Assembly (NCBI GenBank): GCA_015063395.1
Contig: SVUF01000003.1
Span: 1 to 43,948 of the forward strand
From: Oscillospiraceae bacterium
Lineage (GTDB): Bacteria > Bacillota > Clostridia > Oscillospirales > CAG-272
Length of the DNA stretch: 43,948 nt
Direction: 5' to 3'
Shown here piece after piece: positions 2,782-35,074 of the stretch. Under the pieces are notes generated by a model that made no database searches, was not told the origin of the DNA, and saw only the letters and a program-made list of their open reading frames with translations. A program made the translations under genes and the position numbers. Within the stretch, counting starts at the first letter, position 1, and each line of letters starts with the position of its first letter.

Positions 2782-3552
2782 TTATTTTTCAGAGTCCTCT
2801 GTTTTTTCCTTCTTTTTAAAGGATATCTTGTTTTCAGTTTTGTTCATTACTCTTGCCATATTCTTGCGATGCAGATATACCACAAGCACCGCCATGGCAA
2901 TTGAGCTTACAGTTGCCAAAAACGGCGGAAACACCTCACCCTTAACAGATGGGAAATGGAGTAATTTATACATACTTGAAGCAAGTACAGGGAACATTAC
3001 AAGTGCAAAAACGGATCCTAAGGATACATATCTTGTCATTGCTACGGTTGCAACAAATATAACCGCGCACACAAGGAATATTACAGGCTCAAGGAAAAGA
3101 ATTACTGCAGATGCACATGCAACTCCCTTGCCGCCCTTAAATCCGTAAAACACGGGAAATGCATGACCGAGCATACACATAAAACCTGCAACATATCCAA
3201 AAGCCTCACCGCCGATTATAATTCCTATAATAACCGACAAAGCCGCCTTCAAAAAATCTCCGAGATATGTGAGAGCAGCCGCGCCCTTACCGTAGGTTCT
3301 CAGCATATTGGTTGCCCCGGCATTTCCGCTTCCGTGAGTTCTTACATCATCCTTATACTTGAACTTTGAAAGTATGATTCCGAAATTAATGCTTCCAAAA
3401 TAATATCCCATTACCGCAACTGCAGCAAGACAAAGAATATAGGGCACTATTTCAAAGGAGATATATTCAATTCCGTCCTCATATCTTATATTTCCGATCC
3501 ATTGCTTCAAAAAGCCGTAATCGTATTTCAATTTGCTAAAAGCCTCAAACAT
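2782..3552 (-). CDS. plsY: Acyl-phosphate:glycerol-3-phosphate acyltransferase
   Basis: PlsY transfers the acyl group from acyl-phosphate to glycerol-3-phosphate, the first committed step of phospholipid synthesis at the membrane. The protein has 256 residues and shows the family's G-S-x-N-F-G loop, the glycerol-phosphate motif GSGNAGATNMLR, and the acyl-phosphate region GFKGGKGVA. There are about five membrane spans and a basic, Lys-rich C-terminal tail. The usual PlsY begins at the first span. Here about 35 soluble residues precede it (MFEAFSKLKYDYGF...), which is unusual. A GGAGG lies 12 nt before the annotated ATG, longer than ideal, but no better in-frame start is visible. It directly follows der. 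Confidence 0.92.
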   Translation of the reverse strand: MFEAFSKLKYDYGFLKQWIGNIRYEDGIEYISFEIVPYILCLAAVAVMGYYFGSINFGIILSKFKYKDDVRTHGSGNAGATNMLRTYGKGAAALTYLGDFLKAALSVIIGIIIGGEAFGYVAGFMCMLGHAFPVFYGFKGGKGVACASAVILFLEPVIFLVCAVIFVATVAMTRYVSLGSVFALVMFPVLASSMYKLLHFPSVKGEVFPPFLATVSSIAMAVLVVYLHRKNMARVMNKTENKISFKKKEKTEDSEK

Positions 3553-3570: not shown

Positions 3571-4902
3571 TCACTTTTTTTCGTCGCCCTTTTCCCTGAT
3601 GACAAGCTTGATCGGTGTGCCTTCAAATCCGAACACACGGCGCAAGCAGTTTTCAAGGTATCTCTGATACGAGAAATGGAACAGGGTCGCACTGTTACAG
3701 AATACCACAAAGCACGGCGGCTGTGAGCCTGTCTGCGTCATGTAGTATATCTTCAAGTATCTTCCCTTGTCCGAGGGCGGTTGAACTCTTGCCACAGCAT
3801 CAGCAAGAACATCGTTGAGCATTCCCGTTGTCACTCTGATCTTTGACTGCTCTGCAACATGATTGATCAGTGTGAAAAGCTTGTCGATCCTCTGCCCTGT
3901 TTTTGCCGAAACAAATATTACAGGCGCATATTCCATATATGAAAATGCTCTTTTTACATCATCTGTAAAGGCTTTCACTGTGGAGTTGTCCTTTTCAATG
4001 AGATCCCATTTGTTAATGACAAATATTGACGCCTTTCCTGCCTCATGAGCAAGACCCGCAATTTTTTCATCCTGCTCGGTCACTCCCGAGGTTGCATCGA
4101 TCATGATAAGACATACATCGGCTCTTTCCACAGCCATTTTTGCACGAAGAACGCTGAATTTTTCAATTCTGTCCTCAACCTTGCTTTGCTTTCTGATTCC
4201 GGCGGTATCAATGAACACATACTTTCCATGTTCATTTTCAACCTCTGCATCAATTGCATCCCTTGTTGTTCCCGCAATATCGGAAACGATGAGTCTGTTC
4301 TCGCCAAGTATTTTGTTTACAATTGAGCTTTTTCCCGCATTGGGCTTTCCGATTACCGCTACCTTTATGGTATCGTCATCCTTTTCCTCCTCGGCAGCCT
4401 CTGGGAAATACTTGCAGACCTCGTCAAGGAGATCTCCGGTTCCCGTTCCGTGAATTCCCGACATTGGTATGGGATCACTAAGGAAGCCAAGCTCATAAAA
4501 CTCATAAAATTCCGGTGGAAGATTACCGATATTATCCACCTTATTTACCGCAAGAAGCACGGGCTTTTGGCTCCTTACAAGCATTTTGGAAATCTCTCTG
4601 TCATCCCCTGTAACACCTGTATGAACATCGGTTACAAGAACGATAACATCCGCCATATCTATTGCTATCTCCGCTTGAGTTTTGATGTGCTTTAATATGA
4701 TATCATCGGTTTTAGGCTCAATTCCGCCTGTGTCGATCATCAAAAACTGTTTACGGTTCCATTCACATTCATAATAGATTCTATCCCTGGTTACCCCGGG
4801 AATATCCTCAACTATGGACACTCTTTCCCCGGCTATTTTGTTAAATATCGTACTCTTTCCAACATTTGGACGTCCTACGATGGCAACTACCGGCTTAGCC
4901 AT
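3571..4902 (-). CDS. der: Ribosome biogenesis GTPase Der (EngA)
   Basis: The 443-residue protein has the diagnostic tandem G domains. The first has GRPNVGKST near residue 10, with DTGG and NKVD; the second has GKPNAGKSS near residue 180, with DTAG and NKWD. A C-terminal KH-like domain ends KLVIREKGDEKK. Der acts in maturation of the 50S subunit. Length and motifs are normal. The start is supported by AAAGGAGG upstream. It lies between the DUF512 radical SAM gene and plsY, an order I recall as recurrent in Clostridia. Confidence 0.97.
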   Translation of the reverse strand: MAKPVVAIVGRPNVGKSTIFNKIAGERVSIVEDIPGVTRDRIYYECEWNRKQFLMIDTGGIEPKTDDIILKHIKTQAEIAIDMADVIVLVTDVHTGVTGDDREISKMLVRSQKPVLLAVNKVDNIGNLPPEFYEFYELGFLSDPIPMSGIHGTGTGDLLDEVCKYFPEAAEEEKDDDTIKVAVIGKPNAGKSSIVNKILGENRLIVSDIAGTTRDAIDAEVENEHGKYVFIDTAGIRKQSKVEDRIEKFSVLRAKMAVERADVCLIMIDATSGVTEQDEKIAGLAHEAGKASIFVINKWDLIEKDNSTVKAFTDDVKRAFSYMEYAPVIFVSAKTGQRIDKLFTLINHVAEQSKIRVTTGMLNDVLADAVARVQPPSDKGRYLKIYYMTQTGSQPPCFVVFCNSATLFHFSYQRYLENCLRRVFGFEGTPIKLVIREKGDEKK

Positions 4903-26641: not shown

Positions 26642-27952
26642 TTATTTTATCTTAAAATTCAAGGTGCTTCCGTTTTGGCAGTTATACACCGTCAGCTTTG
26701 TCAGCGTTTCTCCTGTATAGCCCTCACACAAAATCATACCGTCTGTAAAGAAATAATCTCCCGAGCTATCGCCCTCTTTTATTACCTTATACTTCTTTGT
26801 TGCCGTATTAAACTCAACAAGACCATAAGCCTCAGTCGGAAAGCCCTGAGAATCAAAGGCTCCGCCGTGATAATAAACCTTTGAGCCAACTACATAGAGA
26901 AAATCCGAATGAAAGGGTGTTTTTCCATATGTAGTATAACTGCCTCCGTTGGCAGCAATTGAACCAATGGTACATTCATCGCTATATTTATCAAGTCTCA
27001 GAAAATATATTTTTGAATCACAAAGGGTAAAATGGACGATACCCTCGCCTTTTTTAAAGGAAACCAATTTGGACTTCTCAGTGCCGTCATATTTTATCCT
27101 TGAAACAGAGCTTACACCGTCTTTGGCTTGTTGGTGATAATATACGTATTTTCCGTCAGAGCGCAAACAGTTTACCGCTCCGTCATGTATCATTTTTGCA
27201 GCTCCGCCGTTTGTGGAAATACTGTAAAGAGGATAACAGTCCTTGGCGTAATCACTGTAGGTTTCATTATATTGAGTATAAAAAATCCTATCCTTTACAA
27301 CAAGCATATCCCAGATCTGAACTCCGCTGAGTATCTTTGCAAAGCCCGAGCCATCAGTGCGAACCTTGGCTATATAGGACTTACCCTCGGTCATGCCCTC
27401 GCAATAAAAATATATCCAATCTCCTACAACGTTGAGGTTTTGTATCTTACCCGAGGGTATCTCATACACGGGAGTTTGGTTTGTTCCCATCTTGGTTATT
27501 TTTGAGATCTTATATGCAGTTGGAGAAAAATATATCCAGTTGCCCTGTGAGCAATACGTACCCATGCTCATATCACTGCCAACGGTATTTTCCTGTCCCT
27601 TTTTATAGTCGGGAACAAATACGGACGGATCCTTTTTATTACACATTGAGCATACGCCGTTTACATATTTGTGGTCAATTACGGCTATATCCTCCTGCTG
27701 TTTTTCACCGCAGGAACAAGCTCTTTCCTGCTTACCCGTTTTTTCACAGCTTGGATCTTCTGTGATCTTCCATTCACCGTATGAATGGATATGCTCTGTT
27801 TTATCGGGAGGGTTATCGGGTGTATTTGTTCCTGAAGCCTCGGCGGTTTTCGTCCCTTCAGGTGTGGGTGTACCCTTATCCCCGGTGTCAGCGCAGGAAA
27901 CCAATGTGAATGCTAAAATTGAAATGATTATTAATGCTATAGTTTTTTTCAT
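26642..27952 (-). CDS. DUF5050-like lipoprotein with Cys/His repeat
   Basis: The 436-residue protein has a lipoprotein signal ending LVSC (Cys20), then a Thr/Pro-rich linker. Residues about 55-110 form a Cys/His module (HSYGEWKITEDPSCEKTG, then C-x-C-G and CSMCNKK) of the kind common on Firmicutes surface proteins. Residues 120-436 look like a beta-propeller of DUF5050 type: repeated blocks with WIYF, YFYCEGM, RTDGSG, KYVYYHQ and KIYFLRLD. The start follows AAAGGG. It lies 49 bp after a membrane-bound MerR regulator carrying the same Cys/His module. It probably displays a binding propeller on the surface; the ligand is unknown. Confidence 0.78.
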   Translation of the reverse strand: MKKTIALIIISILAFTLVSCADTGDKGTPTPEGTKTAEASGTNTPDNPPDKTEHIHSYGEWKITEDPSCEKTGKQERACSCGEKQQEDIAVIDHKYVNGVCSMCNKKDPSVFVPDYKKGQENTVGSDMSMGTYCSQGNWIYFSPTAYKISKITKMGTNQTPVYEIPSGKIQNLNVVGDWIYFYCEGMTEGKSYIAKVRTDGSGFAKILSGVQIWDMLVVKDRIFYTQYNETYSDYAKDCYPLYSISTNGGAAKMIHDGAVNCLRSDGKYVYYHQQAKDGVSSVSRIKYDGTEKSKLVSFKKGEGIVHFTLCDSKIYFLRLDKYSDECTIGSIAANGGSYTTYGKTPFHSDFLYVVGSKVYYHGGAFDSQGFPTEAYGLVEFNTATKKYKVIKEGDSSGDYFFTDGMILCEGYTGETLTKLTVYNCQNGSTLNFKIK

Positions 27953-28001: not shown

Positions 28002-29513
28002 TTATTTGGAATAGGTTATTTCACATTTGATCCCGCTTATATTCGGACTGCTTCTGTCGATCTTCAAATTTTTGTTTTTTATAACAAAGCTTTTTACAGA
28101 ACGAAACGGATTTCCGTTCCAAATATCATCATCAAGATTTTCAGAGAAAGCTCCTGTTGAAATCGACACCACGCCCTCGCAGATCACAATGCTTCTCAGC
28201 TCCTCGGTATACACACTCCTCAGCCACGGATGAGCCTTATATTCTCCCGTCGCCTCGGGCATTTTTCCATAACCGTGTATTACAAGGGTTCTTTCGACCT
28301 CATTGTTGGGGTCTATTACCCCTGTGATATAGTATTGAACAGGACAATATACCCCTCCCATATATGAGCCGTCGGCATTGCCGTATTCGCAAACCTTCAA
28401 GTCACATACTGTACATTTGTAGCCAAGGTCTCCGTTTTTTACAAAGCTGTGCTGCTCCGTTGGAGGAATTATATTTGAGGTATAGCTCTCTTTGCATCCC
28501 ACACATTCAAAATATGTATACCCCCTGTTTGAACAATCTCCCTTGGTTACGGTTCTTGTATAGCTATGGGGCTTTTTCTCTATAACCATTTGGGGAATTG
28601 TAGCTTCGTTACACACTGTACAGTGTTTACCCTCTGTCAGTCCCTCTTCAGCGCATGACGCCTCAATGGCATAATCGGTCACTTCCTTGTGAGGAAGCTT
28701 TGGAACTGTTACAACCTCAACCGCTCTGCAGTCATTGCATTTCCTTATTATTCTTCCCTCGGCAGAACAGCTTACCTCTCGTTCAACGGCAAGCTCACTC
28801 CAAGAATGTTGACAATCGGTTATTGCAAATACAGAACTCGCCGTACAAATCGGTATACATAAAATGCAAATACCAATCAACACCTTTTTCACCTTCTGCT
28901 TTTGCAGAAGCTTGATCTTCGATGTAAACATACTGACCACTGAAGGAACAAAGCAAAAAACGATGATTCCCAATAGCACAGGATGGAATATTGGGTTTTT
29001 GTAGCTTATAATTTTTACAATACCTATTGTAAGGCTAATGAGAATTGGCAGCCAAACCGCCATGAACATTGCCGTTCCGCGAAGACCGGCAAGAATTCTT
29101 TTTGACAAATTCGGTGCAACGTTTTCTTGTGACACCGCCATCTCCTCGGGCTTCGAAAGCTCCCTTGCAAGATCCGCAACTGTATATTGAAGCTCCTCGT
29201 CCAACGCTGACATTGCAGAAACCTTTTTTTGATTGATTAAAAGATTTTTTGCAAGTCTTTCCTTGGCATCCTTGATTATTGCAGGACTGCTTGTTGGATC
29301 CTTCAGTATTCCGCGGATCTCCTCAATGGAAAAATCAAAGCTTCTGAGAATTGCGATGTCATTAAGCTCCGATATGTTTTCATCGGTAAAATCAAATGCT
29401 TTACGTCCAAGATAGTTTTCAGTAAACTGAGGATTTATCAGTCCTTCCTCAATATAATACCTTACCGTTCTGTCCGTAAGCCCTGTTTTTTCACACACTG
29501 TTTTAATTTTCAT
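28002..29513 (-). CDS. Membrane-spanning MerR-family regulator with Cys/His-repeat ectodomain
   Basis: The protein has 503 residues from the ATG at 29513, which follows AAAGGAGG; the track start at 29540 lies within the -10 box. Residues 1-70 are a MerR winged helix (VCEKTGLTDRTVRYYIEEGLI, RKAFDFTDENISEL). Residues 75-125 are probably a coiled coil. Three spans at about 149-169, 176-196 and 209-230 place the C-terminus outside. Residues 235-385 hold at least three Cys units, C-x9/10-C-x2-C (C249-C259-C262, C287-C298-C301, C327-C337-C340), each paired with an H-S/K motif, plus a partial fourth. A BspA-like stretch (LRSIVICEGVVSISTGAF) follows. It looks like a one-component sensor that binds DNA from the membrane. 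Confidence 0.85.
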   Translation of the reverse strand: MKIKTVCEKTGLTDRTVRYYIEEGLINPQFTENYLGRKAFDFTDENISELNDIAILRSFDFSIEEIRGILKDPTSSPAIIKDAKERLAKNLLINQKKVSAMSALDEELQYTVADLARELSKPEEMAVSQENVAPNLSKRILAGLRGTAMFMAVWLPILISLTIGIVKIISYKNPIFHPVLLGIIVFCFVPSVVSMFTSKIKLLQKQKVKKVLIGICILCIPICTASSVFAITDCQHSWSELAVEREVSCSAEGRIIRKCNDCRAVEVVTVPKLPHKEVTDYAIEASCAEEGLTEGKHCTVCNEATIPQMVIEKKPHSYTRTVTKGDCSNRGYTYFECVGCKESYTSNIIPPTEQHSFVKNGDLGYKCTVCDLKVCEYGNADGSYMGGVYCPVQYYITGVIDPNNEVERTLVIHGYGKMPEATGEYKAHPWLRSVYTEELRSIVICEGVVSISTGAFSENLDDDIWNGNPFRSVKSFVIKNKNLKIDRSSPNISGIKCEITYSK

Positions 29514-29538
29514 CAAAGTACCTCCTTTTTTCACCCGC

Positions 29539-29569
29539 ATTATATTCTTTTACGTTGGGTGGAAGTCAA
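29539..29569 (-). promoter_or_regulatory. MerR-type promoter with 19-bp spacer
   Basis: On the minus strand there is a -35 TTGACT, a 19-bp spacer and a -10 TATAAT. The spacer carries an imperfect dyad, CTTCCAC...GTAAAAG. Every other good promoter in this window has 17 or 18 bp. A 19-bp spacer is the hallmark of promoters activated by MerR-family proteins, which twist the DNA. The start codon of the MerR gene is 26 bp downstream, so autoregulation is the natural reading. Confidence 0.75.
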
Positions 29570-34226: not shown

Positions 34227-34979
34227 TTACTGTGCCTGTTCTTCTGCGAGGTACTTATTGACAAGAATCGCAGAAACAATATACGTCGCTGCATTGACGA
34301 GGCATTGAAGCTCCAGCATCATTTTGCCGTCAGCAAAATATCCAAAGCCTTCAACCAATGTGATCACGCCGAACACCCAAAGCCATGTTTTTGCACCGTG
34401 AGCATTCTTTACAAAATCGGTTGTAGAATTGTCAACTCCCATATATACTGACTTGGCAAATGTATGTATCTTCTTGAATCCAAAAATATTTATAAGAAGT
34501 CCCGCAAGCGCAAAAGCCACCAAAGCACCAACCACAGCATATGCCAATGCTCCCGAAAGCAGCTCAATCAGCCACTCCGCTCCGTCAACCGTAACAAGTT
34601 GCTCAGAAAAAACATCTCCGAATGCCAGAAGCATTATGCCGAGCAATCCTCCTGCTGCCATAAGCGCTACACATGCAACATATGTAATGATATACGTAGC
34701 ATAAACCGTTCCGCTGACTCGTCTCAATGATTTCGTATCCACAATGCCCTTCTTTACATTGGAAAAAACCATCCAAAGAAAGATCATAAACAAAAGCTGA
34801 ATTACATCCATGCTTTCTCCAAGCAGACCAAGTCCAAAGGATACTGACGTCAAAATGCAAATGACCAAAAACAATTTGTCCTTGAGGGCTGTCATTACCA
34901 TGCTCCATGCCTTATTCACGCTTACCTTTTCAGAGCTGTTTACAGTCTCAACAGCTTCAAAATTTTGATTATTGTCCAT
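34227..34979 (-). CDS. Multi-span membrane protein, unknown
   Basis: The 250-residue protein has a soluble start of about 30 residues and about six membrane helices (VICILTSVSFGLGLL, LLFMIFLWMVF, TYIITYVACVALMAAGG, ALAYAVVGALVAFALAGLLINIFG, WLWVFGVITLVEGFGYF, and a last one near 225-243). A loop with KSVYMGVDNSTTDFVKNAHG lies between the last pairs. The family is not recognised. It starts after AAGGAGG and has its own strong promoter and terminator. Confidence 0.7.
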   Translation of the reverse strand: MDNNQNFEAVETVNSSEKVSVNKAWSMVMTALKDKLFLVICILTSVSFGLGLLGESMDVIQLLFMIFLWMVFSNVKKGIVDTKSLRRVSGTVYATYIITYVACVALMAAGGLLGIMLLAFGDVFSEQLVTVDGAEWLIELLSGALAYAVVGALVAFALAGLLINIFGFKKIHTFAKSVYMGVDNSTTDFVKNAHGAKTWLWVFGVITLVEGFGYFADGKMMLELQCLVNAATYIVSAILVNKYLAEEQAQ

Positions 34980-35045: not shown

Positions 35046-35074
35046 ATTGTATCACACGATCATCTGATTGTCAA
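35046..35074 (-). promoter_or_regulatory. SigA-type promoter of the 34227 gene
   Basis: On the minus strand there is a consensus TTGACA, a 17-bp spacer and TACAAT preceded by TGTGA, about 65 bp before the start. The rest of the spacer to 35216 holds no feature I can support. Confidence 0.8.

Follow-up and report, generated by a model that had tools for sequence, protein, structure and literature searches.

The analysed window, 43,948 nucleotides of contig SVUF01000003.1 from a 1.96-Mb draft genome (143 contigs) of an Oscillospiraceae bacterium, contains on its minus strand an open reading frame with its ATG at 29513 and its stop at 28002 (a first-pass annotation of the gene had given no strand). 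The encoded regulator is a single protein in which membrane spans follow a MerR DNA-binding domain (according to Pfam, hydropathy and AlphaFold2) and is followed by a lipoprotein gene whose start lies 49 bases past the regulator stop codon. The features of the locus are as follows:

35046-35074, minus strand: second promoter motif TTGACAATCANGYGACCAYGTGNTACAAT, before the membrane-protein gene 34227-34979 (genome motif search)
29539..29569, minus strand: MerR-type promoter/operator TTGACTTCCACCCAACGTAAAAGAATATAAT, 19-bp spacer with palindrome (upstream comparison, genome and family searches)
29521..29526, minus strand: ribosome-binding site AGGAGG of the regulator gene (read directly from the sequence)
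28002..29513, minus strand: gene of the transmembrane MerR protein, 503 aa (ORF and translation; orthologues in eight other genomes)
29301..29513, minus strand: MerR winged-helix DNA-binding domain, residues 1-71 (PF13411; Foldseek)
29016..29072, minus strand: predicted span 1, residues 148-166, hydropathy core (hydropathy and AlphaFold2)
28923..28979, minus strand: predicted span 2, residues 179-197 (hydropathy and AlphaFold2)
28827..28883, minus strand: predicted span 3, residues 211-229, behind a basic loop (hydropathy and AlphaFold2)
28404..28814, minus strand: Cys/His repeats, residues 234-370, with three complete Cys3-His units plus a half unit (invariant Cys; unit comparison)
28005..28403, minus strand: BspA-like C-terminal part, residues 371-503 (alignment; LRR_5 in relatives)
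26642..27952, minus strand: lipoprotein gene, 436 aa, with lipobox, one Cys/His repeat and DUF5050 beta-propeller (PF16472, E 8.5e-25; model)

In the textbook picture, MerR regulators are soluble sensors whose distortion of the DNA opens promoters. The MerR winged helix claimed in the first-pass annotation was borne out by the domain searches: residues 1-71 matched MerR_1 (PF13411; E 1.5e-12, 47.8 bits against a cut-off of 21.6), PF00376 also scored above its cut-off (33.3 versus 28.2 bits), and the Foldseek matches of the N-terminus were MerR-family DNA-binding domains. The ToxR-type winged helix (Trans_reg_C) had no Pfam match in the regulator, MerR_1 being found instead. The “coiled coil” that had been assigned to the region behind the MerR domain is better described by linker helices at residues 73-89, 95-102 and 112-120, as seen in the AlphaFold2 monomer model. 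With regard to the long dimerisation helix that MerR proteins carry behind the DNA-binding domain, these helices and a weak match to PF09278 (E 0.077) are what the regulator shows. Another MerR gene of the same genome (contig C112, L001:973-1710, minus strand) codes for a protein with a pair of membrane helices and, at the C-terminus, a motif resembling a zinc ribbon.

The hydrophobicity peaks of the regulator (148-166, 179-197 and 211-229) coincide with helices at residues 136-170, 178-198 and 206-230 of the AlphaFold2 model (nine orthologues; mean pLDDT 81.5), which is strand-rich in the ectodomain and whose relative domain placement is unreliable at a pTM of 0.38. Spans 2 and 3 are connected by a loop with six Lys/Arg and no Asp/Glu residues (across the orthologues four to seven basic and no acidic residues), so that by the positive-inside rule this loop and the N-terminus would lie inside and the C-terminus outside; the occurrence of the same Cys/His repeat in exported lipoproteins supports an outside location of the regulator repeats. 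The three spans and the N-in/C-out orientation proposed earlier are thus also predicted here, and the topology prediction does not place the Cys repeats in the cytoplasm, the location that had been named beforehand as speaking against the proposal.

The outside part of about 270 residues comprises three regular C-x9/10-C-x2-C units, each with a His as described in the first-pass annotation (C249/259/262, C287/298/301 and C327/337/340), and a half unit (C367/370). Shuffling of the ectodomain produced at least three such units in 38 of 20,000 trials; the invariance of all repeat Cys and of H236, H275 and H355 in the alignment of nine orthologues appears more telling than this test. In 97% of 151 repeat units from many proteins, a His is positioned 10-14 residues ahead of the first Cys. 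No Pfam or NCBIfam model covers the repeat in the regulator and Foldseek yielded no credible PDB match for the ectodomain fold; a zinc-finger protein as the identity of the repeat was rejected, its single PDB sequence match (E 0.6) being attributable to chance. The BspA-like stretch proved to be real, with LRR_5 matched in a longer orthologue (L048, E 2.3e-5) and strongly in the neighbouring lipoproteins, but it is short and LRR_5 found no match in the 503-aa regulator itself.

Full-length orthologues (33-51% identity) were present in eight other genomes as one continuous protein, a recurrence of the architecture that the earlier annotation had proposed to look for; besides the repeat Cys, the TENYLGR wing and most of the DNA-reading region are invariant among them. 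The named relatives are Clostridia MAGs, several of them from animal guts. At E < 1e-10, the N-terminal module was matched in 45 out of 395 genomes from the same family and in one out of 290 further genomes sampled across the class: the regulator lineage is patchy in its distribution. A further cassette (L082, about 3186-3340) shows a frame break near the regulator start, due to either assembly error or decay. The stretch L012:530-2381, from a different family of the order, holds a tandem pair of genes of about 300 aa that combine MerR with a membrane helix and lack an ectodomain.

A common consensus, TTGACTTTTACCCTRCGTAAAAGTNTATAAT, was found upstream of every member examined; it consists of a -35 and a -10 box at an exact 19-bp spacing: TTGACT is followed by the palindrome ACTTTTAC-N5-GTAAAAGT within the spacer and by TATAAT, and each of the 16 distinct sites had both the palindrome and the 19-bp spacer. 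Regulators of COG0789 bind palindromes between boxes that are 19 or 20 bp apart (PMC1526738); since a palindrome in a spacer of exactly 19 bp is a published hallmark of MerR promoters, the element supports MerR-type regulation. Within the window, the pattern occurred at a single site (29539-29569; chance expectation none), and direct evidence comes from 12 measured pairs, in which the operator was located 23-25 bp from the start codon. Among the 395 family genomes, 28 carried the pattern (backward-pattern control: 0), and 26 of these also had a family gene, shorter members of about 310-340 aa included (Fisher p 2e-26, a value inflated by genome relatedness). Operator matches with one or two mismatches in the gene-less genomes G007, G011, G015 and G020, mostly located before other MerR-type genes, were set aside. 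A different operator type, TTGACATTGACGCNNCGTCAAGTG, was found upstream of MerR genes of about 230 aa (L109, L110, L131, L133, L136-L140), several of which are followed by lipoprotein-like genes.

Four operator sites exist in the own genome, three strong and one weak: at the regulator gene, at C40:390 before a 461-aa lipoprotein, at C107:4494 before a 318-aa lipoprotein, and at C3:51114, the weak site with two mismatches, where the lipobox ORF begins after an in-frame stop. All three distal sites thus precede lipoprotein ORFs (three operator-linked lipoproteins, as called by a simple lipobox rule), compared with 11 lipoproteins among 190 background ORFs. Near the start of the weak-site lipoprotein, a frame break is present (L096, about 3819-3855), which reflects assembly error or decay. 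In the relatives G002, G257 and G036, ten, ten and four sites were detected, respectively, with genes for lipoproteins, membrane proteins and a DUF1836 regulator downstream; Cys/His repeats are carried by the operator-linked lipoproteins L098/L121, L115/L119 and L116, and several targets in G002 and G257 are membrane proteins without the repeat. At G002:C53 and G257:C9 (L146, L124), the operator that precedes the DUF1836 regulator gene is that of the transmembrane MerR family. In G178, G287, G381 and G190 the operator was found only at the regulator gene itself, which indicates that the wider regulon is not conserved and that the cassette is its constant part. As judged from the operators, the sequences suggest that the regulator acts on its own gene and on a small number of surface lipoproteins, several of which bear the repeat. 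The first-pass annotation had suggested metal, redox state or a polymer as the outside signal; the predicted regulon points towards the envelope or the partner lipoproteins, and away from metal efflux and detoxification.

The second promoter motif, TTGACAATCANGYGACCAYGTGNTACAAT, has a 17-bp spacer and a palindrome and is present at seven sites in the own genome, the other six being C2:2589, C40:570, C107:4619, C45:2732, C81:19655 and C116:8235. It precedes one DUF1836/MerR-like regulator gene as well as membrane or lipoprotein genes; in C40 and C107 it is located roughly 125-180 bp downstream of the operator, and the C3 promoter is similar, not identical, to it. The transmembrane MerR protein and the DUF1836 regulator may be parts of one envelope-related network.

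According to this evidence, that is, the architecture and its conservation, the operator and its linkage to the family gene, the linked lipoprotein and the kinds of target genes, the protein is probably a one-component MerR regulator that is tethered to the membrane and controls the sensor-lipoprotein cassette to which it belongs as well as a small envelope regulon. The one-component regulator at the membrane envisaged by the first-pass annotation is consistent with the conserved DNA-reading region, the operator, the predicted N-in/C-out orientation and the repeats shared with lipoproteins. The MerR domain in the cytoplasm is presumed to be a dimer and would bind the palindrome in the over-long 19-bp spacer, both in front of the regulator gene and at the promoters of a few genes for lipoproteins and membrane proteins. 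The ectodomain with its Cys3-His and BspA-like parts, the modules of which are common to some of the controlled lipoproteins, would sense a surface condition or the state of those lipoproteins, and the change, relayed through the three spans, would bring the promoter boxes into alignment as is usual for MerR proteins, with activation by promoter distortion rather than repression as the expected outcome.

A sharper form of this explanation, not exclusive of it, holds that sensing requires the lipoprotein, which would bind to the ectodomain via the shared Cys/His module, the regulator alone being blind (compare ToxS-ToxR and VtrC-VtrA). The linkage is indeed strict for Cys/His ectodomains: a lipoprotein gene was found downstream in ten of ten loci with the Cys/His-repeat ectodomain (also at G036b, described below) and in none of six relatives with an unrelated ectodomain, and the cassette lipoproteins combine one or more repeats with either DUF5050 or BspA leucine-rich repeats; in the window, the DUF5050 part was modelled as a beta-propeller with PDB entry 3s25 of Eubacterium rectale as best match. 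However, in G002 and G257 the first lipoprotein is without the repeat and only the second one contains it, and the pairing could be merely that of a regulator and its target; an obligate partnership is conceivable, though rather doubtful.

Binding or release of zinc by the Cys3-His units on the outside, or their oxidation, is unlikely to be the signal, although the Cys3-His set is invariant in each unit, which may hold a metal, and although fold and family are otherwise typical of metal-sensing MerR proteins. In the relatives, large surface proteins and lipoproteins without a regulatory role carry this repeat in abundance, so that its function may rather be structural, and no genes for metal transport or detoxification turned up downstream of the operators in the own genome and the relatives examined. 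In addition, the regulator scored far below the curated cut-offs of the metal-sensing subfamily models CueR, ZntR, CadR-PbrR and MerR (CueR: 31.3 bits versus 147.4; the others were lower still relative to their cut-off).

Hardly probable is the view that the ectodomain is a fusion-acquired anchor or surface structure, with regulation being constitutive or governed by a cytoplasmic signal. The shorter family members of about 310-340 aa are devoid of an ectodomain and keep the same operator, for which the ectodomain is thus not needed, and ectodomains are freely swapped within the family; yet the ectodomain is conserved over its full length with invariant residues, and its type predicts the neighbouring lipoprotein. 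Two deviating ectodomains were observed: G036b (L049:4815-8249, minus strand) encodes a 1,144-aa protein with a MerR domain, one span, and InlB-like and BspA leucine-rich repeats but no Cys repeats, and a sister group (L083, L084, L086, L089, L038, L050) shares the N-terminal module and the operator and has an unrelated ectodomain of about 170 residues, most of the six relatives ending in DQPYYLELDW or similar. The G002 target L114 was discarded as a homologue of the latter ectodomain, the similarity being too weak (BLAST E 0.51, profile 8.9 bits). Finally, the idea that a sequencing or assembly error had joined a MerR gene to a gene for a surface protein, which had been named beforehand as speaking against the proposal and which the 143-contig draft state might invite, is already refuted: the continuous architecture recurs in eight further genomes, and one of these is also on public record as a separate MAG.

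The membrane-tethered regulator favoured here shares with the MerR family (COG0789: MerR, CueR, ZntR, BmrR) the N-terminal winged helix, the palindrome between boxes 19 bp apart and the position of the gene behind its own operator; in contrast to the soluble effector-binding domain and the efflux or detoxification targets of that family, it has three predicted spans with a long outside domain, and envelope genes lie behind its operators. With the transmembrane transcription regulators, as presented in the main text of PMC10269533, it has in common that DNA-binding domain and spans reside in one one-component protein; according to that text, those regulators most commonly possess a single span, and MerR is not named there as their DNA-binding part (it may be in the supplementary tables). 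ToxR/CadC-like regulators and VtrA/VtrC (PMC5936718, PMC9214523) likewise combine a cytoplasmic DNA-binding domain with an outside sensor and an adjacent gene for a candidate exported partner, but their winged helix is of the ToxR type, whereas the present MerR regulator stems from a Gram-positive lineage, and the neighbour is a lipoprotein with beta-propeller or leucine-rich repeats instead of the lipocalin-like partner of VtrA. In the biomass-sensing RsgI/SigI pairs of Clostridium thermocellum, as far as described in the available text of PMC4711584 and PMC12203970, a membrane protein with an outside sensing module and interchangeable ectodomains is also linked to the control of exported proteins; RsgI, however, is an anti-sigma factor acting via proteolysis and does not bind DNA. 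Transmembrane regulators are a known class, and no described MerR member was found; a search of the open-licence literature for membrane-bound MerR proteins returned nothing relevant.

Tentatively, these proteins may represent a membrane-anchored MerR lineage whose swappable ectodomains copy modules of the controlled lipoproteins, so that the surface state would be read directly at MerR promoters, with no kinase, sigma factor or proteolysis involved. Given its defined operator and the lipoprotein regulon predicted for it, the lineage would make it directly testable whether MerR promoter distortion can be driven through a membrane, and it would offer a first handle on the regulation of surface lipoproteins in uncultured gut Clostridia.
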